Positions 1,751 to 62,920 of a DNA stretch of 63,056 nt are shown here, one piece after another. Positions within the stretch are counted from its first letter, which is position 1, and every line of letters starts with the position of its first letter. The DNA lies in NCBI GenBank assembly GCA_903889245.1, contig CAISWQ010000074.1:1-63056 (forward strand). Reading direction: 5' to 3'. A program made the translations under genes and the position numbers. This DNA is from an uncultured Lentisphaerota bacterium. GTDB lineage: Bacteria; Verrucomicrobiota; Kiritimatiellia; CAIQIC01. The notes under the pieces are model-generated. The model searched no databases. It worked only from the letters and a program-made list of their open reading frames with translations, and was not told the origin of the DNA.

Positions 1751-1864
1751 TTTTCCAAACCTTGGAAATCCTTCCGTCGCATTTTCCAAGGCTTGGACAG
1801 GCGGCCCTTGGCTTTTCCAATCCTCGGAAAAGTTCAGGAGCCCGGCTGCCCATCCTTGGAAAAG
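1751..1864. repeat. palindrome cluster 1 (four TTCCAAGSCTTGGAA units)
   Basis: Four copies of the window's 15-bp palindrome are centred at 1760, 1791, 1822 and 1854 (steps 31, 31, 32). The first three are nearly intact (TTCCAAACCTTGGAA, TTCCAAGGCTTGGAC, TTCCAATCCTCGGAA); the fourth keeps only a clean right arm. The cluster fills the 206-bp space between the divergent comF and kinase genes, so it sits where both promoters would be expected. Confidence 0.9.
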
Positions 1865-8071: not shown

Positions 8072-8150
8072 TTCCAAGGCTTGGAAGGTGACCGGCAGTT
8101 TTTTTCCAAGGCTTGGAACAAGCGGGCGTTGTTTTTTCCAAGCCTTGGAA
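8072..8150. repeat. palindrome cluster 3 (three near-perfect units)
   Basis: Three units with intact TTCCAAGSCTTGGAA cores are centred at 8079, 8111 and 8143, exactly 32 bp apart. Spacers are 17 bp, T/A-rich at the edges and GC-rich inside. The cluster occupies the divergent gap between the cyclophilin gene and aspS and ends 21 bp before the aspS start codon, so it is probably in or next to the aspS leader. Confidence 0.93.
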
Positions 8151-10052: not shown

Positions 10053-11111
10053 ATGATGAATGTTGAGTCAGTCCTTTCGGCCTTGGTTTTCTGCGCCGCT
10101 GGTACGGGGCTGTTCTTCTATTTCATCAACCGCTTTGTGCTTACGCAGCGCGATTATCCGATCAAAGCGCCGCTGCTGTTGCTGGCTTTCGCGCTGCTCT
10201 ATGGCGGTGGCCTCTGGTGGGGCTGGCGCGTCGGTTTTGCGCCGTCGTTCTGGGGGGCACTCGTCTTGCTGGCGGTCATGATGGTGAGCGAGGGGCGGCG
10301 ATTATCTCTGCGCCGCCGCATGGCCGGCACGCCGCCGGTCTGGCAGGAGAACGTCGCGGAGCATCTACGCAAGCCTTTCACCACGACGACGCTCGCCCTT
10401 CGTCATTATGAAATCCGGTTGCCCGCGTGGCGCGGCCCGCGCCTGCGTATCGCGCACGTCACCGACTTCCACGTCAACGGCATGTTGCCGGACGCGCACT
10501 ACCGCCTCGTCATGGAGCGCGTGCAGCAGGCGGAGCCAGACTTGATTTTCTATACCGGGGATTTTCTGAGCGATGAGACCAGCTATGCCGAACGCCTGCC
10601 CGTGCTGCTCGGCGCTGTGCGCGGCAAGCTGGGTTCGTTCGCGGTTCTGGGCAATCACGACTACTGGTCGGACCCGGCGCGTGTGACGGCGGTGCTCAAG
10701 CAGGCCGGCGTCCAGACCTTGGAAAATGGTTTCCAAGCCCTGGAAGCCGGCGGTGCGCGGTTCATGCTCTGGGGCTGCGAGGACCCGTGGGGGCCGACGC
10801 GTTGGTCGGCGCCGCCCCCGGCCGATGGCCTCGTGCTCGCGTTGAGCCACACCGGCGACAACATCTACCGCCTCGCCCGCGCCGGCGCGCACGCGGTTTT
10901 TTCCGGGCACTATCACGCCGGCCAGTGGCGGCTGCCGGGTGTCGGGCCGCTGCTGGTGCCCTCGCGCTTCGGGCGGCGGTTCGATCACGGCCACTTCGTC
11001 GTGCAGGGCGCGCACCTGTTCGTCAGCGCCGGCATCGGCATCACGCGGATCCCCTTCCGCATCTATTGCCGGCCGGACGTCCTCATCGTGGATATTTTCC
11101 CGGCGAGTTGA
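10053..11111 (+). CDS. membrane-anchored metallophosphoesterase
   Basis: The 352-residue protein has about three N-terminal hydrophobic segments (residues 7-28, 38-60, 65-82) followed by a calcineurin-like phosphoesterase domain. Metal-ligand motifs are in order: TDFHVN, YTGDF, LGNHDYW, SHTGD and GHYHAGQ. This layout matches YkuE-type or TMEM62-type membrane phosphoesterases; in YkuE-like proteins lipid A or UDP-sugar-lipid substrates are known, but the substrate here cannot be told. Two palindrome units (10711-10745) are translated in frame as QTLENGFQALEAGG, between the GNHD motif and the next strand. The domain therefore carries a repeat-derived loop. Confidence 0.88.
   Translation: MMNVESVLSALVFCAAGTGLFFYFINRFVLTQRDYPIKAPLLLLAFALLYGGGLWWGWRVGFAPSFWGALVLLAVMMVSEGRRLSLRRRMAGTPPVWQENVAEHLRKPFTTTTLALRHYEIRLPAWRGPRLRIAHVTDFHVNGMLPDAHYRLVMERVQQAEPDLIFYTGDFLSDETSYAERLPVLLGAVRGKLGSFAVLGNHDYWSDPARVTAVLKQAGVQTLENGFQALEAGGARFMLWGCEDPWGPTRWSAPPPADGLVLALSHTGDNIYRLARAGAHAVFSGHYHAGQWRLPGVGPLLVPSRFGRRFDHGHFVVQGAHLFVSAGIGITRIPFRIYCRPDVLIVDIFPAS
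10711..10745. repeat. palindrome pair inside the phosphoesterase gene
   Basis: Two units, TCCAGACCTTGGAA and TTCCAAGCCCTGGAA, are centred at 10717 and 10738. The 21-bp step is two helical turns instead of the usual three. They are translated in frame as TLENGFQALE. Both keep only one perfect arm, as expected if the copy is being modified under protein-level selection. Confidence 0.75.
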
Positions 11112-11929: not shown

Positions 11930-13174
11930 TCATTCGTCCACCACGATCTGCTCGCCGGGCTGGAGGCCGGAGAGAACCTCGAACTGCCGGTCGTCGGCCC
12001 AACCGAGCTTGACCGCGCGCGGCTCCGTGGCCGCGGCGCGCCGCACGAGCACGGTGGCCGCTCCGTTCTGCCAGCGCACGGCCGCGCGCGGCAGGAGCAG
12101 CGCCCGCGGGTTTTCGTAGGCGAGGATGTGCGCGGTCACGGAGAGCCCGGAACGCAGCCGCGGGTCCACCGCCTGCAACGCGCTGACCACGTGGAAGTAC
12201 TTTTGCCACGCCGGTTTCTCGGCGACGACCTGCGCGGTCGCACCGACCGACTCGACCGTGCCGGTCAGCGTGAGATCGTGGAAAGCGACCGGCACGACTT
12301 GCGCGGTGGCGCCGGCGCTGATGCGGCCGAGCTCGGCTTCGGGCACGTAGCAATGGACGACGAGGCTGCTCATATCCGGGATGACCATGAACGGCATGTT
12401 CATGAAGACGCTATCGCCGACGCGCACGACGCGGAACTCGTTGCCGATATAGGTCGGCAGATAGCCGAGCACGCCCGCGGCGGGCGCGGTGATCGTGCAG
12501 GCCGCCAGTTCCTGCCGGGCCAAGCTCAATTCGCGCTCGGCAGCGGCGAGCTTGGCGCGCGCCTGTTCGAGGCCGAGCGGCTGGAGATAGTCGCGCGAGA
12601 GCTTGAGCTGCTGCTGGACCTGCTTCGTCTTCGCTACAGCCTGCGCCAGCTTGCCCTCCTGCTGCCGGATTTCCTGCGCGGTGACGAGGTCGTCCTTCAG
12701 CAGCGCGCGGCTGTCATCGAGGAACTGCCGCTCCTCGGCCTCCTTCGCCTGTGCCTCGGCCAACTGGCGGTCGAGCTCGCCGAGCTTCAGCGGCCACTCG
12801 GCATTTTGTTGGCTCTCGAATTCCGATTTCGCGGCGGCATGGGAACCTTCGAGCTTCACGATCTCGCGCTCGATGCGCGTGGGATCGAGGCGCGCGAGTA
12901 CCGCGCCCTGCTGGACGCGCAGGCCCTCCGGCGCCAGCTCGACCAGCGTCGCCTGTCCGCCGAGCCGCGACATGATCATGTGGACGCGCCGCGACTCCAG
13001 CTTGCCGCCGTAGCTGGCCCAGACGCGCAGCGGGCCGTTGGTCGGCGTTACCGTGGCTGGCGCCGGAGCCTCGCGTTGGCCACACCCGGGGAAAAGCGAA
13101 ACCGCCAGGACGCCAAGGAAGAGCGCAACTCTGCCCGGTCCGTTCGTGGCGATCTGGGTGTCTGGGCGGTTCAT
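11930..13174 (-). CDS. HlyD/MacA-family periplasmic adaptor lipoprotein
   Basis: Membrane-fusion protein that links an inner-membrane exporter to TolC. The 414-residue protein has a lipoprotein signal (ALFLGVLAVSLFPGC, Cys near residue 33), a barrel-sandwich half (QQGAVLARLDP), a long alpha-hairpin of heptad-rich sequence (about residues 90-210), and the second lipoyl half plus beta-barrel (ACTITAPAAGVLGYL, then PGEQIVVDE). ATG at 13174 overlaps the stop of the upstream tolC gene by ATGA. The signal peptide is encoded by a word-like repeat (13100-13171). The ABC ATPase follows after 85 bp. Confidence 0.92.
   Translation of the reverse strand: MNRPDTQIATNGPGRVALFLGVLAVSLFPGCGQREAPAPATVTPTNGPLRVWASYGGKLESRRVHMIMSRLGGQATLVELAPEGLRVQQGAVLARLDPTRIEREIVKLEGSHAAAKSEFESQQNAEWPLKLGELDRQLAEAQAKEAEERQFLDDSRALLKDDLVTAQEIRQQEGKLAQAVAKTKQVQQQLKLSRDYLQPLGLEQARAKLAAAERELSLARQELAACTITAPAAGVLGYLPTYIGNEFRVVRVGDSVFMNMPFMVIPDMSSLVVHCYVPEAELGRISAGATAQVVPVAFHDLTLTGTVESVGATAQVVAEKPAWQKYFHVVSALQAVDPRLRSGLSVTAHILAYENPRALLLPRAAVRWQNGAATVLVRRAAATEPRAVKLGWADDRQFEVLSGLQPGEQIVVDE
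13100..13171. repeat. GCCAAGAC-word element forming a signal-peptide coding region
   Basis: A diverged relative of the 11856-11924 element: left arm AACCGCCAGGACGCCAAG (13100-13117), right arm CTGGGTGTCTGGGCGGTT (13154-13171), pairing at 14 of 18 positions. It coincides with the first ~25 codons of the HlyD-like gene: the right arm encodes NRPDTQ and the left arm encodes LGVLAV, the hydrophobic core of the signal peptide. Confidence 0.7.
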
Positions 13175-14685
13175 TTCATTTCCGGTTTCAGTTCCGCGGG
13201 CTGCTCGAGCAGCGTGCCCAGCAGGCGGCGGAGCTTGTAGCCGGCGAGGGCGGCCTCGGTCTGCGCCGCGAGCCACGCGGTCTCCGCCTGCTGGAACTGC
13301 TGCTCGGCATCGGTCACGGCAAAGTTATCGCCCCGGCCCATTTCAAACAAGCGCCGCGCGAGCCGCAGCCGCGCTTCCGCGACGCTGCGGTTGCGCTGGG
13401 CCTGCCCGACCTCGGCGGCGGCGCGCGCCTGCTCCAGCAGTTGCTGCCGTACCTGCCGCTCGATCAGGCGGCGCGCGGTCTCGATATCGGCCAGCGCGGT
13501 GCGCTCATCGAGCTGCGCCTGCCGGTAGGCGATGCGCTCCCGTCCCGTGCCGATTTCGCCATCGGCCTGCAAGCCGATGGACCAGTTGTTCTGGTCGAAG
13601 CTGCTGGCGCTGGAGAGCGTCGCGCCCTCGCCGTAGCGCTCGTAGGTGGCCACCAGTTTCAGGTCGGGCAGCAGCATGTGCCGCGCGATGCGCAGGCCGC
13701 GCTCGACATCGCGGTGGTCCTGCTGCACCTGCGCCAGGTCGAGCCGGTTCGCGAGCGCGGTGGCCACCGCCCGTTCGACGGCTTGCGTTTCCACTGCGAG
13801 CATCGGCGGCGGCGCAAGCTGCAAGGTGAACTGCGGCGCGAGGCCGAGCAGCTCCGTCAAATCCAGCCGCAGCGCGGCGGCGCGCTCGGCGACGGTGCGC
13901 GCGCGTGTCGCGGCGTCGCCGCGCTGCGACTCGACGCGCAGCGCGTCCACCTTCGTCGCGCGGCCCTGCTGGACGCGCGCCTGCGTCAGGCGGGCGAGCT
14001 TATCGAGCCGCGCCAGCGCCGCCTGTTCGACTGCGGTCTGCGCCTCGACGCGGCTGATCTCGGCGTAGGTCTGGATCACCTGCAAGGCGACATCGCTCTT
14101 CTTCAGCTCCAGGCTGCGGAGCGTGGTCTTGATGCGGCTGGAGGCGCGTTCGAGGCCCTCGCGGTTGACGAGTTGGCCGGCGTAGCGCAGCAGCGGCTGG
14201 GAGAGCGTGACGTGGACGCTGTCGCGCGCGGCAAAGTCGCTATCGGGGATGTCCGACTTGGTCAGCGCGCCGCCGATTTCGAGCTGCGTGCCCCATTCGG
14301 TTTTCTTCAGCAGGTCCACGCCGAACTGGCGCGTCTGGATGCCGGCGGTGGCGCTGGCACCGGCGTTGGGGCGGGCGCGGATGGAGAACTCGGTCTCGGC
14401 GTCGGCGCGGCCGAGCAGGGCGGACTCGTGCGTGGCGGCAAGCTTGGCGAGGTCGCGGTTTTGCAGGAGCGCGAGCTGCACCGCGCCCTGCAAGGAGAGC
14501 GCGAGCGGCGCGTTGGTCTCGGCGGCGGCGGGAAAAGTTCCAAGGATGGGAACGAGCAGGGGCAGGATTTTCCAAGCCTTGGAAAAAAGCGGCGCGCACG
14601 TTCCAAGCCTTGGAAAAAACCGGGCAGCTTTTTCCAAGGCTTGGAAAACCGCGCGCCGACCGTGTGCTGAAGCGAGGCGGACCAT
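13171..14685 (-). CDS. TolC-family outer-membrane channel with repeat-derived N-terminus
   Basis: Outer-membrane exit duct for the adjacent adaptor/ATPase system. The 504-residue product has two OEP repeats of long amphipathic helices (e.g. LEQARAAAEVGQAQRNRSV) as in TolC, and ends soon after LEQPAELKPEMK. The mature part begins near residue 56 (ETNAPLALSLQ). Everything before it, about residues 12-55, is translated from four palindrome units. The only hydrophobic core available for export, ILPLLVPILGTFPAAA, is part of that segment. ATG at 14685 is the first start; no ATG or GTG occurs between the repeats and the mature domain. A TATAGT box at 14700-14705 could be a -10 element. The TGA overlaps the adaptor's ATG. 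Confidence 0.9.
   Translation of the reverse strand: MVRLASAHGRRAVFQALEKAARFFPRLGTCAPLFSKAWKILPLLVPILGTFPAAAETNAPLALSLQGAVQLALLQNRDLAKLAATHESALLGRADAETEFSIRARPNAGASATAGIQTRQFGVDLLKKTEWGTQLEIGGALTKSDIPDSDFAARDSVHVTLSQPLLRYAGQLVNREGLERASSRIKTTLRSLELKKSDVALQVIQTYAEISRVEAQTAVEQAALARLDKLARLTQARVQQGRATKVDALRVESQRGDAATRARTVAERAAALRLDLTELLGLAPQFTLQLAPPPMLAVETQAVERAVATALANRLDLAQVQQDHRDVERGLRIARHMLLPDLKLVATYERYGEGATLSSASSFDQNNWSIGLQADGEIGTGRERIAYRQAQLDERTALADIETARRLIERQVRQQLLEQARAAAEVGQAQRNRSVAEARLRLARRLFEMGRGDNFAVTDAEQQFQQAETAWLAAQTEAALAGYKLRRLLGTLLEQPAELKPEMK
14538..14646. repeat. palindrome cluster 4, inside the tolC-like coding sequence
   Basis: Four units centred at 14545, 14577, 14608 and 14639 (steps 32, 31, 31). 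The last three have perfect TTCCAAGSCTTGGAA cores; the first is TTCCAAGGATGGGAA. Because 31 and 32 are not multiples of three, successive units are read in different frames as FQALEK, FPRLGT, FSKAWK and PILGTF. No stop arises in any of them. Confidence 0.92.
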
Positions 14686-14745: not shown

Positions 14746-15807
14746 TCAAGGGTCGGGCGGTTTTTCCGAGCCGATTGCCAGGAAGAGCGGGAAGCGGCGC
14801 ACCACGCCCGGCGGGACGCGCACGAGGACATCCAGGCGGGCGGCCTCGCGCACGGTCAGGGCGGTTGGCGTCACGCGGATTTCGCCGCGGTTTGCGGCGG
14901 TGGGCTGCCAGGTGGCGCGAAAGGCGGAGTTGGTGCTGGCGAGGCCTTCGATGTGTGCGCCGGGATAGAGGAGTGTGACTTGAGTGGTCTTGGTGACCGG
15001 TTGCGCTCCCAGCTGCCAGACGGCGAACGCCGGCTCCAGGCGGATGACTTCGGGAATCTGCACGTCCAGTTGCAGGCGCACCTGCGGCTCGCAGGGATCA
15101 TCGGTCTGCACGAGCACATATTTGCTCTGCTGGCCGGTGCGCATGCCGAAGTCGAAGCGCACCGAGACCACGCCGCCATGGTGTGGCGGCGCGTTGGTGC
15201 GGTCGGTCGTACCACGGATGCAGGCGCAGGCGGAAGTGATGGCGCGGATGTTCACCGTGCGTTCGCTGCGGTTCAGGAAAGCGAAGTCGGCGATGAGCCG
15301 GTCATCGGCGGCGGTGGCTTGGAAGGAACGCACCCGCGTGGACCACTGCAACGCGGCCAAGGCGGCGTTGGTCATGGAGAGCACGCGTGCGATTTCCTGC
15401 TGGAGGGCGGGCAGGAGGTCGGTCGTGTAGGCCGGCAATTTGCGCTGAATGGCGCGGGCTTCGGGGCGGGCATTGAACTCCGCCAGCGCACTGATTTCGG
15501 CCGCCGTGAAATGCTTGACGAGGGCATCCAAGGTGGCTTGTTCGATGGTCGCCCGCCGGACTTCCCGGTGCAGGAAAGTTATCAACTCCGCGCGGTGTTC
15601 TGGCGCTCTCTGCAAAGCCAGTTGCCGGGCCGCCTCATCCATGGTTTCCACCCATGGAACCGTGGCCGCATACCGTTTCGCGGCTGCCCGCCGATTTTCC
15701 GGGGAGTCTGGGCAGGAGGCGTCGCTGTGGCGCTGGCAACCACTGGTCAGTCCGAAACCGAGCAGCAGGGTGCAGACGCAGCAACGGATGAGGCGGAGAA
15801 GCTTCAC
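14746..15807 (-). CDS. DUF1573-type lipoprotein with an N-terminal DUF2059-like region
   Basis: The 353-residue protein has a lipoprotein signal ending LTSGC, so it is probably anchored in the outer or inner membrane facing the periplasm. The N-terminal half contains FTAAEISALAEFNARPEAR, which resembles the helical DUF2059 motif. The second half is an Ig-like DUF1573 domain: FLNRSERTVNIRAITSACAC with the usual cysteines, then beta-strand-rich sequence. Function is unknown; DUF1573 domains are common in Bacteroidota and PVC envelope proteins. The start is GTG at 15807, overlapping the TGA of the upstream calcium-repeat gene (GTGA), which indicates translational coupling. Confidence 0.75.
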   Translation of the reverse strand: MKLLRLIRCCVCTLLLGFGLTSGCQRHSDASCPDSPENRRAAAKRYAATVPWVETMDEAARQLALQRAPEHRAELITFLHREVRRATIEQATLDALVKHFTAAEISALAEFNARPEARAIQRKLPAYTTDLLPALQQEIARVLSMTNAALAALQWSTRVRSFQATAADDRLIADFAFLNRSERTVNIRAITSACACIRGTTDRTNAPPHHGGVVSVRFDFGMRTGQQSKYVLVQTDDPCEPQVRLQLDVQIPEVIRLEPAFAVWQLGAQPVTKTTQVTLLYPGAHIEGLASTNSAFRATWQPTAANRGEIRVTPTALTVREAARLDVLVRVPPGVVRRFPLFLAIGSEKPPDP

Positions 15808-16730
15808 TTTTTTTGCACGGGGCGCAGTGTGTGCCCGACCATGGTTTTCGCCAGTTCCGGGTTTCTATTCCGGCGTTCGTCGGCGCAGCCCGCCGGGACA
15901 ATGCCGGTGTGGGCGGCATAATTGGCCGCACCGGATACACTACCGATGCAGCCGGCAGGGAAATGATACGAACCATAAAGGCCGTTGCCCAGATAGTGTG
16001 TGGGACAGCACGCACCGTCGCTGCACCAGGAATAGCCATCGGAACACTGGTATTGCTGGAAGAGTCCACCACCGGAGGCGGCGGAGGCCAGCACGACACC
16101 GGCGCCGACGGCACCTGCCACACCCAAGCCGAGCAGGGCGGCATCACCGCCCGAGAGACCCGGTGCTGGTTTGCTCACGGCGGGAGTCGCAGTGGCAGTG
16201 GCGGCGGGCTTCAGCAGGGATTTGGAGGCCGTGTTCGAGAACCCCATGCGTTTGGGCGGTGGCGAGTTCCTGTCCACCGGCGTGATGTTGAGACGGCCCC
16301 AGCCAGCCTGATACCACTTCAGCGCATCCGGGTTGAAGTTGGCCTGTTGCGGGGTCATGTCGGTAGGGCAGTCCAAGGCGTTATGCGGATCCGAGCCATA
16401 CCAGTCCTCGGCAAAGTCCAGATACTTGTCGCCATCGGAGTCAATCGCGTCGGGCAGGCGCGGCTCCGGCGGCGGCAGGATGGTGGTCGAGGTGATCGGA
16501 GTCGGCGTGATGGGTGTGGGTGTGATGGGCGTGGGTGTGATGGGTGTGGGTGTCACCGGGGTCGGCGTGATGGGGGTCGGCGTGATAGGCGTGGGCGTGA
16601 TCGGGGTGGGCGTCACTGGCGTCGGCGTGACGGGCAGGCTTTGCGCCCAGACAGTTGTGGCCAAATCCAGTAACACGACCACAACTATTCCGCGCGCGAG
16701 CTTGGTCAGCATCACGGAACATGTCTTCAT
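15804..16730 (-). CDS. secreted protein with PTPIT repeats and a TSP3/EF-hand-like segment
   Basis: The 308-residue protein has a signal peptide (GIVVVVLLDLATTVWAQS), then about nine copies of the pentapeptide PTP[IV]T (about residues 33-80), then an acidic calcium-binding-like segment DAIDSDGDKYLDFAEDWYG as in thrombospondin type 3 repeats. A second hydrophobic, Gly/Ala-rich stretch follows (about residues 205-230), and the C-terminus is Cys-rich (CSDGYSWCSDGACCP). It looks like a cell-surface or periplasmic protein on a stiff linker. A possible promoter lies at 16837-16864. SD AGGAG precedes the ATG at 16730. It is coupled to the downstream DUF1573 lipoprotein. I do not recognise a family for the whole protein. 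Confidence 0.75.
   Translation of the reverse strand: MKTCSVMLTKLARGIVVVVLLDLATTVWAQSLPVTPTPVTPTPITPTPITPTPITPTPVTPTPITPTPITPTPITPTPITSTTILPPPEPRLPDAIDSDGDKYLDFAEDWYGSDPHNALDCPTDMTPQQANFNPDALKWYQAGWGRLNITPVDRNSPPPKRMGFSNTASKSLLKPAATATATPAVSKPAPGLSGGDAALLGLGVAGAVGAGVVLASAASGGGLFQQYQCSDGYSWCSDGACCPTHYLGNGLYGSYHFPAGCIGSVSGAANYAAHTGIVPAGCADERRNRNPELAKTMVGHTLRPVQKK
16499..16635 (-). repeat. 15-bp tandem repeat encoding PTP[IV]T
   Basis: About nine imperfect copies of a 15-bp unit (GTGATGGGTGTGGGT on the plus strand) lie wholly within the calcium-repeat gene and stay in frame. Changes between copies are mostly at third positions, giving Ile or Val at one site only. Copy number probably varies between strains. 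Confidence 0.85.
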
Positions 16731-21897: not shown

Positions 21898-21936
21898 AAG
21901 GCGCCGGAGGTCAAACTTTCGGCGCCTTTTTATTTT
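21898..21936 (+). terminator. rho-independent terminator
   Basis: GGCGCCG (21900-21906) pairs with CGGCGCC (21920-21926) and is followed by TTTTTATTTT. It ends the subtilase/relic unit. The T-run runs directly into the first palindrome of the next cluster. Confidence 0.75.
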
Positions 21937-22011
21937 CCAAGCCTTGGAAAAAGCACGCCAAATTTTTCCAACCCTTGGGGGAAAGCGCATTTCAATTTCC
22001 AATCCTTGGAA
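21935..22011. repeat. palindrome cluster 5 (three units)
   Basis: Units centred at 21942, 21973 and 22004 (steps 31, 31). The first is perfect (TTCCAAGCCTTGGAA), the second TTCCAACCCTTGGGG and the third TTCCAATCCTTGGAA. The cluster lies between the subtilase terminator and the convergent sulfur-cluster operon end at 22030. Confidence 0.9.
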
Positions 22012-31593: not shown

Positions 31594-31640
31594 TTCCAAA
31601 CCTAGGAAACCGGAACCACCGTTTTTTCCAAGCCTTGGAA
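31594..31640. repeat. palindrome cluster 6 (two units)
   Basis: Units centred at 31601 (TTCCAAACCTAGGAA) and 31633 (TTCCAAGCCTTGGAA), 32 bp apart, in the gap between the CoADR-rhodanese start and the cupin stop. Confidence 0.88.
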
Positions 31641-32981: not shown

Positions 32982-33272
32982 TCATAGTTCCTCTTCCACC
33001 GGCAACACGAAGGCGCGCAGGCCCTCCTCCGGGTACAGGACGGTTTTGAATTTCTGCAGCGCCGCGGTCAGCGCCGCCTTGCGGTCGTCGGCAACGATCG
33101 TGAACAGCAGCGTCGAGCGGTCGGGCCACTCGGCGGTGCCGAGCTTCTTGCCGGTGACGCCTTCGCCGCTGACCTGGGTCAGCTCGGTGTAGGCGTGGAC
33201 GCCGGCAGTCTCGATCAGTTTGATGAGTTCCGCATGGCGTTCACGCGGGCCGATGATGAGCAGCATCTTCAT
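32982..33272 (-). CDS. PII/CutA-like ferredoxin-fold protein next to the RND pump
   Basis: A 96-residue alpha/beta protein: MKMLLIIGPRERHAELIKLI, a loop with TGKKLGT, then STLLFTIVADDRKAALTAAL. The pattern suggests the ferredoxin-like fold of PII-like regulators (compare DUF3240 proteins near CusA pumps). Such proteins may sense metal or nucleotide and control the transporter. Its ATG overlaps the RND permease stop (ATGA), so expression is coupled. Confidence 0.75.
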   Translation of the reverse strand: MKMLLIIGPRERHAELIKLIETAGVHAYTELTQVSGEGVTGKKLGTAEWPDRSTLLFTIVADDRKAALTAALQKFKTVLYPEEGLRAFVLPVEEEL

Positions 33273-36200
33273 GGTTGTTTCTCCTCTGCGGGTATAACGA
33301 CAGGCTCGGCCGCCGGGGTGGGCTTGCCGAAGATCAGCATGTAGACCGCCGGGATCACCAGCAGCGTGAAGGCGGTCGAGACGAACAGGCCGAAGATCAG
33401 CGACCAGGCGAGGCCGCTGAAGATCGGGTCGAGCGTGATCGGCCATGCGCCGAGCATCGCCGCGCCGGCGGTCAGGAAGATCGGGCGGAAGCGGACCGCA
33501 CCGGACTCGATGATTGCCTGCTGCAGTGGCGTGCCGCGCGCGACGGCGTGCTTGATGAAGTCAATCAGGATGATGCCGTTGCGCACGACGATGCCGGCGA
33601 GCGCGATCATGCCGATCATCGCCGTCGCCGTGAAGAAGATGGGGTTCGGGATGCCCATCACGGGCTGGCTGCCGAAGACGTTGAGCAGCCAGAAGCCCGG
33701 CATGATGCCGATCATCGTCAGCGGAATGGAGAGCATGATGATCAGCGGCAGCAGGAAGGACGCGGTCTCGTAGACCAGCAGGATGTAGATGCCGGCGAGC
33801 GCGACGGAGAAGGCGATGCCGAGATCGCGGAAGACATCAATCGTGATCTTCCACTCACCCTCGCCGCTCCAGTCGGCGGTGATGCCGGCGGGCAGCGGGT
33901 TGGCCTTGAAGTGCTTTTGCAGCGCGAGCACGGCGTAGGCCGGGCCGCGGCCGGCCATCTCGGCCTGCACGAAGACCACGCGCTCCTGGTTCTTGTGGAA
34001 AATCGTCTTATCCTCGACGCGTTCCTCGAAGCGGCCAAGTTCGCCGACCTGGACGAGCTGGCCGGTCCGGCCCTTGACCGGGATGGCCTTGAGCCGTTCC
34101 ACATCGGAGCGCGCGGCGCGCGGAAGGCGCAACACCAGCGGCGTTTCGTTCTGCTCCGCCGCCACGTGCAACATGCCGGCGGGCGCGCCGCCGAGCGCGA
34201 GGCCGACCGTCTGGACGATGTCCTCGGTCGCGATACCGTTCAGCCCGGCTTTCTCGCGGTCCACGTGGAAGACGAGCTTGCGCTGGTTGTCCTCGATGGT
34301 CGTATCCACGTCCACGACGCCTTCCTCTTTCTTCAGTTGCGCCTCGACCGTGCGCGCGGCGGCGATCAGGTCGCTGTACTTGTGGTGCGGCTGGCCATAG
34401 ACCTCGGCGACGACGGTGGCGAGCACCGGCGGGCCGGGCGGCATTTCCACCACCTTGAAACTGGCGTGGTGCCGCTGCGCGATCTTCTCGATCTCGGCGC
34501 GCAGGCGCAGCACGATTGCGTGGCTGGCCATCTGCCGCTCCTGGCGCGGCAGCAGGTTGATGCGGACATCGGCGACGTGCGGGCCCTGCCGCAGGTAGTA
34601 GTGGCGGACGAGCCCGTTGAAGTCCATCGGCGAACTCGCGCCGACGGTCGCGGTGAAGTCGGTGACCTCCGGGACCGTGCGCAGGAATTGCTCAAGATCG
34701 CGCACGGCGGCGTCGGTGGTCTCCAGCGCGGTGCCTTCGGGCATATCCACGACGACTTGGAACTCGTTTTTGTTGTCGAACGGCAGCATCTTCAGCGGCA
34801 CGAGGCCGGTGACGATCAAGCCGAGCGAGCCGGCGAACAGCGCCGCCATCACCCAGAGCAGCGCCTGGGCCTTGCGGCGCGAGGCGACGAATGGGCCGAC
34901 GATGCGGTTATAGATGCGGTAGGTCCGCGTGGCGCGCGCGTCGCCCTCGTGCGGGTCGTGGCTCGCGCCGCCTTCCTCTTTCTTGAGCAGCTTGTCGGAA
35001 AGCCACGGCGTGATGGTCAACGAGACGATCATCGAGACCAGCATCGCGATAGGGACATTGACGGCCATCGGCCGCATATAGGGGCCCATCATGCCGGTGA
35101 TGAAGAACATCGGCAGGAAGGCGACGACGATGGCGAGCGTGGCGATGACGATCGGCGGCAGCACCTCGATCATGGCTGCGAGGATCGCCTGGCCGCGCGG
35201 CAGTTTCCGCATGGTCAGGTGGCGGTGGATGTTCTCGACGCCGACGATGGGATCATCCACCAGCAGGCCGAGCGTCAGGATCAGCGCGAACAGCGTCACG
35301 CGGTTGATCGTGTAGCCGAGCAGGAAATTCATCAGCAGCGTCAGCGCGTAGGTGATCGGCACCGCGATGGCGACGATCAGCCCGACCCGCCAGTTCATCA
35401 CCAGCCAGATCAGCGCGATGACCGTAACGATGGCTTCCAGCAACCCCTCGACGAGGCCGTTGACCTTCTCGTTCGCGGTCTCGCCGTAGTTGCGCGTCAG
35501 CTTGACCTCGACGCCGTCGGGGATGACGTTGCCGCGCAATTCCTCCAGGGTATGTTCGACATCGCGCGCGACCCAGACCGCGTTGCTGCCCTTCTTCTTG
35601 GCAATCGCCACAGTGACAGCAGCCTTGCTGACTTCTGACTTCTGACCTCTGACCTCTGGCTTGGCCGCCGGGCCAAAGCTGAAGCGCGTGTAGGTGGCCG
35701 GTTCTTCCGGGCCATCCTCGACGCGCGCGACATCACGGAGATAAACAGGCCGGTCGCCGTGCAGGCCGACGAGCAGGTTGCGCACCTCGTCGGCATGGCG
35801 CAGGAAGTCGCCGGTCTCGACCGCGATGACGGCGTTGTTCTGCTCAAACGCGCCGCTGGCCATCTGCGTGTTGGCCAGCTTCAGCGCGCCGGCGATCTCC
35901 AGCGCGGAGAGCTTGTGCGCGGCGAGCCGCTCGGGATCCAGATAGACATGCACCACCCGGCGTTCGCCGCCGTGGAGCGTCACTTGTGCGCTGTTCGGGA
36001 TGTGCTGCAGCTTGGCCGTCACTTCCTCGGCCACGCGGCGGAGTTGGTGGGTGTCATAGCGGTCGCTGTAGAGCGCCGCGGTGACAATCGGCACATCATC
36101 AATCTCGATGGGCTTGACCACCCAACCGGCGATGCCGGGCGTGGTGCGGTCCATGTTCTGCGAAATCTTGTTGTAGAGCTTGACCAAGCTCTTCTCGCGG

Positions 36201-36526
36201 TCCTCGCCCACGAAGAAGCGCACGGTGACCACCGCCTGGCCGGGGCGGCTCATGGAATAGACGTATTCCACGCCGTCAATCTGGTAGAGCATCCGTTCGA
36301 GACGCGAGGCGACGAGCTTTTCGACTTCCTCGGCGCTGCCGCCGGGGTAGCTGACCATGACATCGGCCAGCGGGACGACGATCTGCGGTTCCTCCTCGCG
36401 CGGCGTGGCGATCAGCGCGATGGCGCCGGCGAGCAGGCTGATGATCAGCAGCAGGATCGCCAGGTTGCCCTTGAGGAAGGCCTCGATCAGGCCGGTAAAA
36501 ATGGAACGTTTCTCTTCCATGGTCAT
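33269..36526 (-). CDS. RND-family efflux permease (HAE-like)
   Basis: Inner-membrane proton-driven pump of 1085 residues, the AcrB size class. It has an N-terminal helix (LAILLLIISLLAGAIALI), two large periplasmic loops, and TM4 with the proton-relay pair in LILTLGLLVDDPIVGVENIH. The DD pair places it with the drug-type (HAE) rather than the metal-type pumps. ATG at 36526 overlaps the adaptor's stop; GTG at 36529 and ATG at 36520 are alternatives. A heptamer-word repeat at 35628-35659 encodes PEVRGQKSEVSK in the first periplasmic domain. Substrate is unknown. Confidence 0.94.
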   Translation of the reverse strand: MTMEEKRSIFTGLIEAFLKGNLAILLLIISLLAGAIALIATPREEEPQIVVPLADVMVSYPGGSAEEVEKLVASRLERMLYQIDGVEYVYSMSRPGQAVVTVRFFVGEDREKSLVKLYNKISQNMDRTTPGIAGWVVKPIEIDDVPIVTAALYSDRYDTHQLRRVAEEVTAKLQHIPNSAQVTLHGGERRVVHVYLDPERLAAHKLSALEIAGALKLANTQMASGAFEQNNAVIAVETGDFLRHADEVRNLLVGLHGDRPVYLRDVARVEDGPEEPATYTRFSFGPAAKPEVRGQKSEVSKAAVTVAIAKKKGSNAVWVARDVEHTLEELRGNVIPDGVEVKLTRNYGETANEKVNGLVEGLLEAIVTVIALIWLVMNWRVGLIVAIAVPITYALTLLMNFLLGYTINRVTLFALILTLGLLVDDPIVGVENIHRHLTMRKLPRGQAILAAMIEVLPPIVIATLAIVVAFLPMFFITGMMGPYMRPMAVNVPIAMLVSMIVSLTITPWLSDKLLKKEEGGASHDPHEGDARATRTYRIYNRIVGPFVASRRKAQALLWVMAALFAGSLGLIVTGLVPLKMLPFDNKNEFQVVVDMPEGTALETTDAAVRDLEQFLRTVPEVTDFTATVGASSPMDFNGLVRHYYLRQGPHVADVRINLLPRQERQMASHAIVLRLRAEIEKIAQRHHASFKVVEMPPGPPVLATVVAEVYGQPHHKYSDLIAAARTVEAQLKKEEGVVDVDTTIEDNQRKLVFHVDREKAGLNGIATEDIVQTVGLALGGAPAGMLHVAAEQNETPLVLRLPRAARSDVERLKAIPVKGRTGQLVQVGELGRFEERVEDKTIFHKNQERVVFVQAEMAGRGPAYAVLALQKHFKANPLPAGITADWSGEGEWKITIDVFRDLGIAFSVALAGIYILLVYETASFLLPLIIMLSIPLTMIGIMPGFWLLNVFGSQPVMGIPNPIFFTATAMIGMIALAGIVVRNGIILIDFIKHAVARGTPLQQAIIESGAVRFRPIFLTAGAAMLGAWPITLDPIFSGLAWSLIFGLFVSTAFTLLVIPAVYMLIFGKPTPAAEPVVIPAEEKQP
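35628..35659. repeat. 7-bp tandem words inside the RND permease gene
   Basis: CTGACTT, CTGACTT, CTGACCT, CTGACCT and CTGG follow one another in frame. On the minus strand they encode EVRGQKSEVS in a periplasmic loop. It is the same heptamer style as the element between yebC and ruvC. Confidence 0.8.
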
Positions 36527-37527
36527 CACTCCTTGGCCGCCGCGAGCACGACCTCGCCATCCTTGAGGCCCGAGAGAATCTCGACGCGCCCTTCATGCGC
36601 CGGGCCGGTCTTCACCAGCCTCCGCAGCACGCGCCCGTTTTCCACCACCTGCACCATCTCCAATTGGCCGAGTTGCAGGAGGGCTGCTGTCGGCAGCAGC
36701 ACGGCGGGCCGCGGCGCTTCCTCGACCGCGAAGCGACCGAACGTGCCCGGCAGGACTTCGCCCTTGGTATCGTCAAGGCGGATCTTCACCTTGCGCGTAC
36801 GGCTCATCGCGTCCACCTCGCTGACGATTTCCGTCACCGTGCCGCGCAGGCTGCGGCTGGGATGCTCCAGCTTCACCTCCACCGTGGCGCCGAGCGGCAG
36901 CTTGCCGACCAGGCGCGCGGGCACCGGCGCCTCCAGCCTCATCCGCTGCGGATCGAACAGCGCCAGCAGCACCTGGCCGGGATTCGCCAGGTCGCCCGCC
37001 TCGATGCGGCGGTCGGTGACGACGCCGGCCATCGGGGCTTTGATGACGGCGTAGCTCAACATGACGCGCACGGCATCGGCCTGCGCCTGCGCCGCGTGGA
37101 ATGCATTCTCGGCGGAGGTCAGCGCCTGCTCCGTGGTCGCCTTCTCGCGGAAGAGCTGCTGGGCGCGCTGATATTCCTTCTCGGCCTGCCGCCGCTGCGC
37201 CTCGGCCGCGGCGAGCTGGTCGCGCAGGTCGCGATCGTCGAGCACGGCCAGTGTCTGGTCCTGCAGGACCAAGCTGCCGGCGGAGACGTTGATTTCCTTC
37301 ACGTAGGCGCTCAAGCGCGAGCTTAAGTGGATGATGCGCTCCGAGCCGACCGTGCCGACGATCTCGACGCGCGGCGCGACCGGTTCGCTCTTCACGGTGA
37401 CCGTGGCAGCGCCGGCGGGCACCGCTGTACCGCGCTCCGCCTGTACCGCGTCCTCCGGCCCGACCTTCTTCGAGCACGCCGTCAACATCGCCACTGACAA
37501 CATCACTGCTGGAATTTTCAGGTTCAT
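36526..37527 (-). CDS. RND periplasmic adaptor lipoprotein
   Basis: Membrane-fusion protein (333 residues) joining the RND pump to TolC. Lipoprotein signal AVMLSVAMLTAC; lipoyl half SAGSLVLQDQTLAVLDD; alpha-hairpin (about residues 95-150); second lipoyl half APMAGVVTDRRIEAGDLAN; then beta-barrel and membrane-proximal domains ending LKDGEVVLAAAKE. It is encoded between the tolC-like and RND genes, with overlap to the latter. The complete tripartite pump (outer channel, adaptor, permease) is therefore one operon under the ArsR regulator. Confidence 0.93.
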   Translation of the reverse strand: MNLKIPAVMLSVAMLTACSKKVGPEDAVQAERGTAVPAGAATVTVKSEPVAPRVEIVGTVGSERIIHLSSRLSAYVKEINVSAGSLVLQDQTLAVLDDRDLRDQLAAAEAQRRQAEKEYQRAQQLFREKATTEQALTSAENAFHAAQAQADAVRVMLSYAVIKAPMAGVVTDRRIEAGDLANPGQVLLALFDPQRMRLEAPVPARLVGKLPLGATVEVKLEHPSRSLRGTVTEIVSEVDAMSRTRKVKIRLDDTKGEVLPGTFGRFAVEEAPRPAVLLPTAALLQLGQLEMVQVVENGRVLRRLVKTGPAHEGRVEILSGLKDGEVVLAAAKE

Positions 37528-37552: not shown

Positions 37553-39022
37553 TCACTTGGCAAGTTCGCCCCGCGCCCGCTTCAGGTTGCTCTGCGCGAC
37601 GAGCAGGTCATAGTAGGCCGCCGTATCGCGCGAGCGCGTCGCGGTCAGGCCGACCTGTGCGGTCAGCAGCTCGGTCACATCGGCCGCGCCCTGGCGGTAG
37701 CGCTCGCGCGTGATGCGCAACGCCTCCTCGGCGCTGGCGACGCTCTGCTGCGTCACGTTGAGCCGCTCCCACGCCTCGCGCGCCTCGAGCTGCGCCTGCT
37801 TGAGGTCGAGCCGCAGGTTGTTCAGCGCTTTCTGCGCCGCCGCCTTGGCCGCTGCCGTGCGCGCCTTTTGTTCCGCCGCCGCGCCCGACTGGCGGAAGCC
37901 GGTGAAGATATCCCACTCTGCGACCGCGCCGACAAAGTAGCTCTGTTGGAAGTCCGCGTTCACCGCGCTGTCCCAATCCGCCGAGCCGAACGCACTGATG
38001 GTCGGCCAGTTCTCGCGCTCGGTCTTGCGCTGCACCTTTTCCTGCGCCTGCGCCGCGAGCCGCGCGGCTTCGAGTTCCGCGCGGCCTTCGACGGCATCGA
38101 GGTTCTTCTCGATCAGCGGCGCCCGCGGCGCGGCCTGCTTGGCGGCCTGCGGCAGCGCGGTCTCGCCGACGACCTCGCGCCCGATGGCGGTGTTCAGCGC
38201 CGCGAGCGCGAGCTGGACGCCGTGCTGGGCGCGGATCAAATCTTCGCGCGCCTCGGCGAGCCGCACCTCGATGTTGAGCACATCAGACTTCGAGGCCGAG
38301 CCGGCGCGCAGCCGCTCGTTCGCGACGCGCGAACTTTCGGTCAGCGTCTCGACGCTTTCCTTGCGGACCTGCACGAAGGCCTGCGCCTGCAACACGCCGT
38401 AGAAGGCGCGCGTCACCTGGTGCGTCAGCTCGTTATCGAGCGCGCGCTTGGCCGCGCCCTCGGCCTGGGCGCCGAGCTTCGCGGCGTCGCGCTGGAAGCC
38501 GCGCTGGCCGGCATCGAGCAGCCGGATTTTCGCGCCGACGCTGTTGCGCCAGTTATCCACGTTGCCCGGATGGTTGAAGTCGTTCTGCATCGAGGCGTCG
38601 CGCTGGTTGAGCTGCATGAAGAACGCCTGCGGCGCGTTGTCGGTGCGCGCGAGGGTGCTGGAGAGCGTGACGGTGGGGAAGTAGGCGGAGGTTGCCTGCT
38701 TGACCGCCTCGCGGGCCGCGAGAATGCGTGCCTCCGCCGCCAGTGCGTCGGGATTCGCCTCCAGCGCGGCGCGGACGCATTCATCGAGCGTCACCGCCTG
38801 CGCGCTGCCGAGCAGCGCCAGCGCCGCCGCGCCGCTCAACAGACGGCCGTGATGGCGCGTGGCCCGCCCTGCGGAACGTGTCGCGATCGTCTTGGCGTAG
38901 GCGGGCGTTCCAAGGATTGGAAACGCCCCGGTGTGTTTTTTCCAGGGCTTGGAAAGGAACAGGCCGAAATTTTCCAAGGCTTGGAAAAAGTTTCCAAGGT
39001 TCGGAAGGGTGCGTGTCTTCAT
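37553..39022 (-). CDS. TolC-family outer-membrane channel of the RND operon, with repeat-derived N-terminal extension
   Basis: Outer-membrane efflux protein of 489 residues; the mature part starts at about VTLDECVRAALEANPDALAA and has two OEP repeats. ATG at 39022 overlaps the arsR stop and has a good AAGGAG (39028-39033), so it is the real start. Between it and the conventional signal core (LLSGAAALALLGSAQA) lie about 50 residues, of which residues 5-39 are translated from four palindrome units (FFQALENF, FLSKPWKK, FPILGT). The repeats thus give a long N-terminal leader ahead of a normal signal peptide. No alternative ATG/GTG start follows the repeats. Confidence 0.92.
   Translation of the reverse strand: MKTRTLPNLGNFFQALENFGLFLSKPWKKHTGAFPILGTPAYAKTIATRSAGRATRHHGRLLSGAAALALLGSAQAVTLDECVRAALEANPDALAAEARILAAREAVKQATSAYFPTVTLSSTLARTDNAPQAFFMQLNQRDASMQNDFNHPGNVDNWRNSVGAKIRLLDAGQRGFQRDAAKLGAQAEGAAKRALDNELTHQVTRAFYGVLQAQAFVQVRKESVETLTESSRVANERLRAGSASKSDVLNIEVRLAEAREDLIRAQHGVQLALAALNTAIGREVVGETALPQAAKQAAPRAPLIEKNLDAVEGRAELEAARLAAQAQEKVQRKTERENWPTISAFGSADWDSAVNADFQQSYFVGAVAEWDIFTGFRQSGAAAEQKARTAAAKAAAQKALNNLRLDLKQAQLEAREAWERLNVTQQSVASAEEALRITRERYRQGAADVTELLTAQVGLTATRSRDTAAYYDLLVAQSNLKRARGELAK
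38908..39006. repeat. palindrome cluster 7, inside the second tolC-like gene
   Basis: Units centred at 38915 (TTCCAAGGATTGGAA), 38947 (TTCCAGGGCTTGGAA), 38979 (TTCCAAGGCTTGGAA) and 38999 (TTCCAAGGTTCGGAA). Steps are 32, 32 and 20 bp; the last is two helical turns. The cluster begins right after the first few codons of the gene and stays open in the coding frame. Confidence 0.92.
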
Positions 39023-39339
39023 GGGTTCTCCTTTTTGCAGCACATGCAGTGCAGGACGCTGACGGCGCGGCGGTCGGCGATGCTGTACCAGACCTCCTTG
39101 CCGCGACGCTCGGCTTGCAGCAGGCCGGCGCGCTTCATGTGGTTGAGGTGCTGGGAGAGCGCGCCCTGGGTGTGGTCGAGGTCGCCCATCAGCTCGTGGA
39201 CGGGTGCGGCGCCGCCGCGTTCGAGGCGGCCGACGATCCGCAGGCGTTCGGGGTGCGCCAGCAGGCGCAAGACGGAGGCCAGCCGCTCCAACTCCGCCGC
39301 GTCCGGCAGCCCCGCGCATCTGGAGGTCTTGGTTTTCAT
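39019..39339 (-). CDS. ArsR-family repressor of the RND efflux operon
   Basis: A 106-residue winged-helix regulator: RLASVLRLLAHPERLRIVGRL, then VHELMGDLDHTQGALSQHLN (recognition helix) and the wing ERRGKEVWYSIADRRA. A C-terminal cysteine cluster LHCMCCKK is probably the ligand or metal-sensing site. ATG at 39339 was chosen because an upstream ATG (39351) lies inside the -10/operator region. The gene overlaps the tolC start (ATGA) and heads the operon arsR, tolC, adaptor, RND, PII-like, DUF6132, DUF2892. A near-perfect palindrome in its promoter indicates autorepression. Confidence 0.9.
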   Translation of the reverse strand: MKTKTSRCAGLPDAAELERLASVLRLLAHPERLRIVGRLERGGAAPVHELMGDLDHTQGALSQHLNHMKRAGLLQAERRGKEVWYSIADRRAVSVLHCMCCKKENP

Positions 39340-39346
39340 GGGCGGC

Positions 39347-39374
39347 AACATATCATGATATGATGATATGTCAA
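39347..39374 (-). promoter_or_regulatory. arsR promoter with operator between -35 and -10
   Basis: On the minus strand TTGACA (39374-39369), a 16-bp spacer and TATGTT (39352-39347). A 24-bp palindrome with 22 of 24 symmetric positions (39348-39371, core ATATCATGATAT) fills the spacer, so a bound repressor would block polymerase directly. The -10 box ends 7 bp before the ATG at 39339, so the mRNA would be leaderless or nearly so. Confidence 0.7.
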
Positions 39375-48817: not shown

Positions 48818-48894
48818 GTCCAGGGCTTGGAAACTGGCTGGCTGTGTTTCCCCAGGGTTGGAGATTTTTGGTGGATTTTTTCCAAGGTTGGGAA
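48818..48894. repeat. palindrome cluster 8 (three diverged units)
   Basis: Units centred at about 48825 (GTCCAGGGCTTGGAA), 48857 (CCCAGGGTTGGAG) and 48887 (TTCCAAGGTTGGGAA), steps 32 and 30. They lie between the response regulator stop and the convergent tRNA-Val gene. Confidence 0.8.
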
Positions 48895-52594: not shown

Positions 52595-52705
52595 TTTCCC
52601 AGGGTGGGAAGAGGCGTGGGTTGAATTTTCCAAGCCTTGGAAGAACCAGGGCTGAACTTTTCCAAGGCTTGGAAAAGCGCGCCGAATATTTTCCCGGGTT
52701 TGGAA
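52595..52705. repeat. palindrome cluster 9 (four units)
   Basis: Units centred at 52603 (TTCCCAGGGTGGGAA), 52635 (TTCCAAGCCTTGGAA), 52667 (TTCCAAGGCTTGGAA) and 52698 (TTCCCGGGTTTGGAA), steps 32, 32, 31. They fill most of the 246-bp gap between the divergent TPR and EF-G-like genes; no gene is present in the gap. Confidence 0.92.
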
Positions 52706-62846: not shown

Positions 62847-62920
62847 TGCCAAGCCTTGGAAAAACCGCCCTGGAATTTTCCAGGGCTTGGATGTTTTTTC
62901 GTGAGATTTTCCAATCCCCC
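62847..62920. repeat. palindrome cluster 10 (three units)
   Basis: Units centred at 62854 (TGCCAAGCCTTGGAA), 62885 (TTCCAGGGCTTGGAT) and 62916 (left arm TTCCAAT only), steps 31 and 31. They follow the SGNH stop by 18 bp. Confidence 0.88.

Follow-up and report, generated by a model that had tools for sequence, protein, structure and literature searches.

Several known bacterial systems resemble, each in part, the palindromic repeat described here. The binding regions of Lrp/AsnC proteins hold clusters of imperfect short palindromes, in some cases with a 30-31 bp periodicity, and their DNA is wrapped round dimers or an octamer (PMC2995911, PMC8707732). The FL11 site shares with our unit a short palindromic form and a centre of 3 bp. 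Other likenesses concern repeats inside proteins, i.e. the RPE of Rickettsia and their counterparts in Wolbachia, which are palindromes translated in frame within conserved proteins, and YPAL/RU-2 of Yersinia, where the repeat supplies part of a predicted signal peptide (both PMC2229807). However, RPE are insertions of 105-146 bp, whereas the 15-bp units reported here arose mostly in place, and YPAL/RU-2 is a mobile element highlighted at one locus, whereas ours are recurrent, phased units. Uptake sequences of Pasteurellaceae and Neisseriaceae are very numerous and partly coding, with a bias to gene ends in Pasteurellaceae (PMC2346458), and cyanobacterial HIP1 is a short, highly iterated palindrome confined to one clade (PMC4390886), again resembling our units.

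REP/BIME sequences are likewise palindromes dispersed by the hundred, mostly extragenic and often near the 3′ ends of genes; the units here differ in having no GTAG-hairpin, in being helically phased and in being conserved inside coding sequence. Unlike the units here, HIP1 is 8 bp long, has a link to methyltransferases and is not known to occur in phased arrays. Our search of openly available journal papers returned no paper with the unit sequence and nothing relevant on palindromes in Kiritimatiellae.

The tolC leader of an RND operon

The unit is a 15-bp palindrome, TTCCAANNNTTGGAA, whose 3-bp centre is free. In the window (the whole stretch of 63,056 nt analysed), four copies lie within the 115 nt past the start of tolC in an RND operon, spaced by 32, 32 and 20 bp, i.e. 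offset from the first by 0, 32, 64 and 84 bp or about 3, 6 and 8 helical turns. The features of the locus are as follows:

33269..36520, minus strand: AcrB-type RND pump of the tolC operon (PF00873, 9.4e-177)
36526..37527, minus strand: RND membrane-fusion protein (HlyD-type) of the tolC operon (PF16576, 4.3e-22)
37553..39022, minus strand: tolC, encoding an outer membrane efflux protein of 489 aa, leader with the array counted in (gene call; PF02321, 1.4e-58; orthologues)
38795..39022, minus strand: tolC leader of 76 residues, MKTRT plus four units plus the conventional signal core LLSGAAALALLGSAQA (38795-38842)
38908..38922, no strand: palindrome unit TTCCAAGGATTGGAA, perfect match to TTCCAANNNTTGGAA, encoding FPILGT in the leader
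38940..38954, no strand: palindrome unit TTCCAGGGCTTGGAA, one mismatch, encoding SKPWK in the leader; spacing 32 bp
38972..38986, no strand: palindrome unit TTCCAAGGCTTGGAA, no mismatches, encoding FQALE in the leader; spacing 32 bp
38992..39006, no strand: palindrome unit TTCCAAGGTTCGGAA, one mismatch, encoding LPNLGN in the leader; spacing 20 bp (two helical turns)
39019..39339, minus strand: arsR-family regulator, its stop overlapping the tolC start as ATGA (PF01022, 5.7e-8)
39028..39036, minus strand: Shine-Dalgarno sequence of tolC, AAAAAGGAG, 5′ of the array (sequence; kept in orthologues)

The tolC ATG (39022-39020, minus strand) overlaps the arsR TGA, and the frame is open across all units into LLSGAAALALLGSAQA and then the OEP domain. 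The resulting leader is MKTRTLPNLGNFFQALENFGLFLSKPWKKHTGAFPILGTPAYAKTIATRSAGRATRHHGRLLSGAAALALLGSAQA, with cleavage predicted before VTLDE. Between the array and the signal core there is no alternative ATG or GTG start, and the one TTG, within the core, has no Shine-Dalgarno sequence. Overlapping start, strong Shine-Dalgarno sequence, four units and subsequent signal core all lie where an earlier note on this DNA had placed them; the long, array-bearing leader that it described is also there, at 76 rather than about 70 residues. Immediately 5′ of arsR, at 39350-39369, lies ATATCATGATATGATGATAT, a likely ArsR operator, and a sequence resembling it, ATATCATGATAT, precedes tolC in locus L020.

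The overlap or near-overlap of arsR and tolC is kept in three congeners. The comparison of orthologous operons that the earlier note had proposed shows the array site to be common to two of them (G001 and G002) in eroded form, with degenerate units in an open frame, and missing in the third (G003), which has a plain 25-residue signal. The array has probably been in the genus for long, as units occupy this position of tolC in two of the three congeners; this speaks against the 'independent' events of that note. Its 'insertion' fares better at tolC than elsewhere: leader lengths among the congeners are 76 (this genome), 36, 53 and 25 (G003), so that sequence was gained or lost here. The tolC tree, which lacks resolution within the genus, is compatible with loss of the array in G003 as well as with repeated gain.

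Abundance, phasing and distribution of the arrays

The window contains 32 units at two mismatches or fewer, compared with 0.65 in first-order shuffles, and the genome 1339 perfect units, compared with none for a reversed control pattern; this abundance is not due to chance. Within the window, Rfam families were represented by tRNA alone, with no match for the palindrome units. Besides the two tolC leaders, units were found at the following positions, none with an assigned strand:

1753..1861: array of four units, divergent intergenic
8072..8150: array of three units, divergent intergenic, before the gene starting at 8172
10710..10745: two units 21 bp apart in the interior of a coding sequence (VQTLENGFQALEA)
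21935..22011: array of three units, convergent intergenic
31594..31640: array of two units, tandem intergenic
48818..48894: array in which two units can be recognised, 62 bp from each other, next to a tRNA gene
52596..52705: array of four units, divergent intergenic
62847..62892: array of two units, 3′ of a gene

Array statistics were taken from a sample of 1.26 Mb (1.262 Mb) that includes the window and makes up 24 % of the genome, with genes (941 in the enlarged sample) called by a purpose-written codon-usage gene caller. This sample holds 236 arrays of 1-6, mostly 2-6, units each (227 with at least two), i.e. about 900-1000 arrays per genome by extrapolation. Adjacent units (pairs up to 130 bp apart) are spaced by 31 or 32 bp, or three helical turns, in 374 of 411 cases, which places them on one face of the helix; the rarer spacings include 20/21, 52/53, 62-64, 84 and 94 bp. 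Over all unit pairs the best helical period is 10.46 bp (R=0.894), whereas the spacings other than multiples of 31.4, taken alone, show only marginal phasing (p about 0.04). The distance between arrays has a mean of 5.28 kb and a CV of 0.59, compared with 0.886±0.056 for arrays placed in randomly drawn gaps (minimum 0.718 in 500 draws) and 0.853±0.050 for arrays placed in gaps weighted by length. Given this period and the low CV, the arrays are helically phased within themselves and quasi-regular along the chromosome.

Most arrays (198/236) are intergenic, whichever way the neighbouring genes point, and 38 (16 %) have their centre in coding sequence; for the first 863 kb alone the coding fraction was 30/164 (18 %), compared with 88 % under uniform placement. 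Arrays occupy 53 % of convergent gaps of at least 100 bp and 38 % each of tandem and divergent ones, and in tandem gaps they lie at a median of 29 nt from the upstream stop versus 70 nt from the downstream start. The idea that coding arrays fill regions poor in gaps was set aside as weakly supported (nearest gap at 1010 versus 763 nt, p=0.04; within 2.5 kb, gaps were as numerous in both cases).

Among relatives, the number of units per genome varies patchily between 0 and 1339 within the window's class (Kiritimatiellae by record titles). Of 241 genomes drawn from the phylum, 25 have neighbouring perfect units at 31/32 bp, and all 25 belong to this class; the sampled genomes of other classes yielded no phased pairs. 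A three-unit pattern run against about 85,000 species genomes matched, among the matches listed, genomes titled Kiritimatiellae, Kiritimatiellaeota, Lentisphaerae, Verrucomicrobia, Spartobacteria, Pontiellaceae or simply bacteria; the class name used here rests on these titles. One MAG titled Spartobacteria (INTA.AUR.068; L069, L073, L075 and others) is rich in arrays of the typical form and may therefore be misclassified in its title. In other genera (G006, G009, G013 and G041) the arms are identical and the centre triplet differs, being mostly TNA or TGT/ACA, and the G041 arrays among the matches listed alternate between 31 and 32 bp (mean 31.5 bp).

For the units themselves, we found neither GTAG or GGAG beside an imperfect hairpin nor a RAYT gene with flanking REPs. 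A genuine GTAG-REP family nevertheless coexists with the palindrome arrays in this genome (G000): a Y1-type transposase (L306 1209-1900, on contig C113) has GTAG repeats GTAGGCCGCGTGACCTCACGCGGC on both sides, as is the case with RAYT genes, and of the 38 GTAG repeats in the 1.26-Mb sample, 22 have a palindrome array no more than 200 bp away. On contig C65, at about 28.6-46 kb (L030-L031), GTAG-hairpin pairs of REP/BIME type occur in the coding leaders of a secreted-enzyme gene cluster, where they give RRVGDPAY...CRPRDLTRR, immediately followed by palindrome units encoding the hydrophobic core.

Arrays in coding sequence and export leaders

A unit is open in all six frames, reading FQALE, SKPWK or FPSLGK, and can therefore sit in coding DNA. 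Of the 38 coding arrays, 17 have their centre within 180 nt of a called gene start, a zone that makes up 15.2 % of coding sequence (p=1.5e-5; the test leans on called starts, and four Tat leaders and the C65 gene cluster are not independent), and four in the last 180 nt. The earlier note had proposed a count over the first 60 codons of exported-protein genes, naming a lack of enrichment as the outcome that would speak against its reading of a preferred target or of tolerance of extra sequence in cleaved leaders. Enrichment is what we see, and since the 17 fall largely in export leaders (those of OEP genes and secreted enzymes, and four of Tat type whose signal ends with FPSLGK...FQ.LEK), it bears out the suggestion that cleaved leaders tolerate units. 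A unit was also present in the first 60 codons of 18/300 signal-peptide-like genes versus 4/305 others, a comparison with a bias, as a unit is mildly hydrophobic and has no stop in any frame; we therefore rely on the start-proximal test instead.

Units encode parts of signals, e.g. MKNNAIPILGTFALLLFQSLESSAAPA, in some leaders the hydrophobic core itself (FPILGT, FFQALE), and they make up signal h-regions in conserved genes, such as MFSNPWKKGLLMFPILGTF and MISKPWKSGWRIFPILGTF. Four-unit arrays in leaders before the hydrophobic core were also found in two further lineages (L075, L079). A second tolC gene in the window is built in a similar way:

13171..14685, minus strand: second OEP/TolC gene of the window (PF02321, 1.2e-30)
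14521..14685, minus strand: its leader, with four units at 14538, 14570, 14601 and 14632

Here, units give the n-region SKAWK and the h-region VPILGT, and the leader is conserved: G003 has MSLPQPFRSLRKVFQGWENRRSVLSKAWKIPLLLVPILGHLLAGAQT and G001 MTLARPFQSFRAVFQGLEISLLIVPMLGNFATAQT, while G004 retains two units in eroded form. Among the 11 OEP genes of the sample, four have 3-4 units inside the leader and a fifth has two units ending at the ATG. The earlier note had offered a preferred target in TolC genes as one of two options, and 4/11 versus 18/300 signal-peptide genes (p=0.0045) points that way; without the two genes of the window, which had given rise to the idea, 2/9 remain (p=0.11), so a preference for TolC genes is suggestive but unproven. 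A third tolC gene (L290, contig C56, about 194270) carries a perfect 28-nt inverted repeat, CATCCCGGACTTTTAAAAGTCCGGGATG, in its coding leader 5′ of the array, and the window also encodes an exported protein with a long TPTPITPTPV repeat (15804-16730, minus strand).

To study the origin of the coding arrays, we set nine interior arrays against their orthologues from two congeners and an array-poor relative. In the congeners, interior units hold register and the 32-bp spacing. Relatives without units have proteins of equal length with few exceptions, e.g. a PNP-like protein reading VYCPRLGNRLERIFQALELP here and VYCPKLGQRLGRIFEALHLP in G004. Since all nine align nearly gap-free with orthologues, some of which have no units, interior arrays arose in place, mostly by codon substitution. 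Thus, the 'insertion' of the earlier note does not describe these genes, in which units replace codons, and it also sits poorly with spacers that vary and with the intergenic position of most arrays.

In one pair of congeners the units are conserved as DNA. At codons for identical residues, third positions in G001 were identical in 50/53 cases within units and 445/757 in flanks (94 % versus 59 %, p=1.7e-8), in a small comparison of 11 genes. The array-poor genomes gave no significant difference (42/56 versus 811/1176 in G003 and 13/25 versus 355/580 in G004). The units are therefore under constraint at the DNA level in the G000/G001 pair, and none is seen in comparisons with genomes holding few units.

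Alternative explanations and proposed role

The best rival explanation is a self-recognition or DNA-uptake sequence, with arrays marking the cell's own DNA for natural transformation, spreading via biased recombination and accumulating in those coding stretches whose peptide is tolerated. Uptake sequences occur in hundreds to thousands of copies per genome, some of them within reading frames, and those of Pasteurellaceae favour gene termini (PMC2346458), as the coding arrays do here. Even spacing, in-place origin and synonymous conservation are all compatible with it; the strong intergenic bias (198/236), on the other hand, is not what it would lead one to expect, and we consider it unlikely. 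We know of no uptake sequences that form phased multi-unit palindromic arrays. Quite unlikely, in our estimate, is a mobile palindromic element of MITE, RPE or REP type inserted in frame, with leaders as the most tolerant sites. Its appeal lies in dispersed palindromes that are open in all frames, as in the Rickettsia RPEs, in a MITE-derived partial signal peptide recorded in Yersinia (PMC2229807) and in the varying tolC leader lengths. However, neither an empty site nor a constant length, ends and internal sequence were found for the arrays: unit number varies (1-6), ends are not constant, arrays are evenly spaced, and spacers mostly differ between arrays, although they are somewhat more alike than column-shuffled controls. 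One of the two Y1 transposases in the genome, moreover, accompanies the different, GTAG-type repeat. For interior arrays, the in-register, almost gap-free alignment with orthologues that have no units led us to reject insertion of a mobile element.

A transcription-factor operator for exported-protein or efflux genes would explain arrays at the 5′ end of several OEP genes, and palindromes with a 3-nt centre clustered at about three turns resemble many Lrp/AsnC targets (PMC8707732, PMC2995911). Occupancy of and position in gaps, however, show no promoter bias, which argues against promoter operators: convergent gaps are occupied most often, arrays in tandem gaps lie closer to the upstream stop, and some arrays are in mid-gene, so that this reading is very unlikely. 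Convergent gaps and the short distance to the upstream stop would suit an element acting in the transcript, i.e. gene-end hairpins that terminate or stabilize mRNA, as proposed for REP. Yet the units do not take the form of an intrinsic terminator (a GC-rich hairpin plus a T run), their 3′ flanks being A-rich runs; RNA hairpins have no need of 31.5-bp helical phasing; and many arrays are within genes or between divergent ones. We regard it as the least probable of these readings. Gap occupancy and flanking composition thus disfavour operator and terminator alike.

Regarding the binder, the arrays have the form of an Lrp/AsnC target (15-bp palindrome, 3-bp centre, 31/32-bp spacing, period of 10.46), from which they differ in their extrapolated number per genome and the absence of promoter preference. 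The Lrp/AsnC domain PF01037 is present in 54 of 56 genomes, array-bearing or array-free, and among the relatives compared its helix-turn-helix does not sort with array presence. Neither presence/absence nor recognition helix of the class-wide Lrp/AsnC protein thus separates array-bearing from array-free genomes, and we claim only that the system works like Lrp/AsnC.

On balance, we think it somewhat probable that the tolC palindromes represent a single array among many of a DNA site that is clade-specific and genome-wide and is bound by a putative oligomeric protein, which would organize the chromosome and whose sites are tolerated in leaders. What we see looks like one DNA-binding site written over the protein code, rather than a jumping element favouring one gene, and independent insertion into TolC accounts for just a part of it. 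A dimeric protein may bind each palindrome and the dimers associate along one DNA face of the array, so that about 45-170 bp of DNA would be bent or wrapped as a chromosomal landmark. Even spacing and lack of promoter bias favour nucleoid organization as a more likely role than gene regulation. Export leaders would be the most tolerant coding place, as they need just charge, a hydrophobic stretch and a cleavage site. Because there is no gap between arsR and tolC, the tolC array lies behind the start codon and is translated; it may be a copy tolerated in the one stretch that is not conserved in an operon without gaps, and we predict that the long leader is exported and that the array leaves with the signal peptide on cleavage. 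Several observations count against this proposal: no binder emerged from the comparison of Lrp/AsnC proteins, the rarer spacings are only marginally phased, even spacing and synonymous conservation would also fit uptake sequences or another genome-wide drive, and the differing leader length shows that an insertion or deletion did occur at tolC. It is tempting to speculate further, although we hold this to be doubtful, that the clade packages its chromosome by an oligomeric protein wrapping phased arrays about every 5 kb, a sequence demand strong enough to change, one codon at a time, both signal peptides and the interiors of enzymes.

Repeats inside proteins, even within a signal peptide, are on record (PMC2229807), so the kind itself is known; the phased, evenly spaced, in-place form of this repeat appears to be new. 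As constraint is present between G000 and G001 and gone in the comparison with the array-poor G003, the responsible factor might be sought by comparing gene content. If the proposal is true, a phased array used as a defined bait would offer a handle on a DNA-binding protein of an almost uncultured class. If one DNA site is demanded this regularly, these genomes would also be a natural experiment in how signal peptides and enzymes absorb an imposed sequence.
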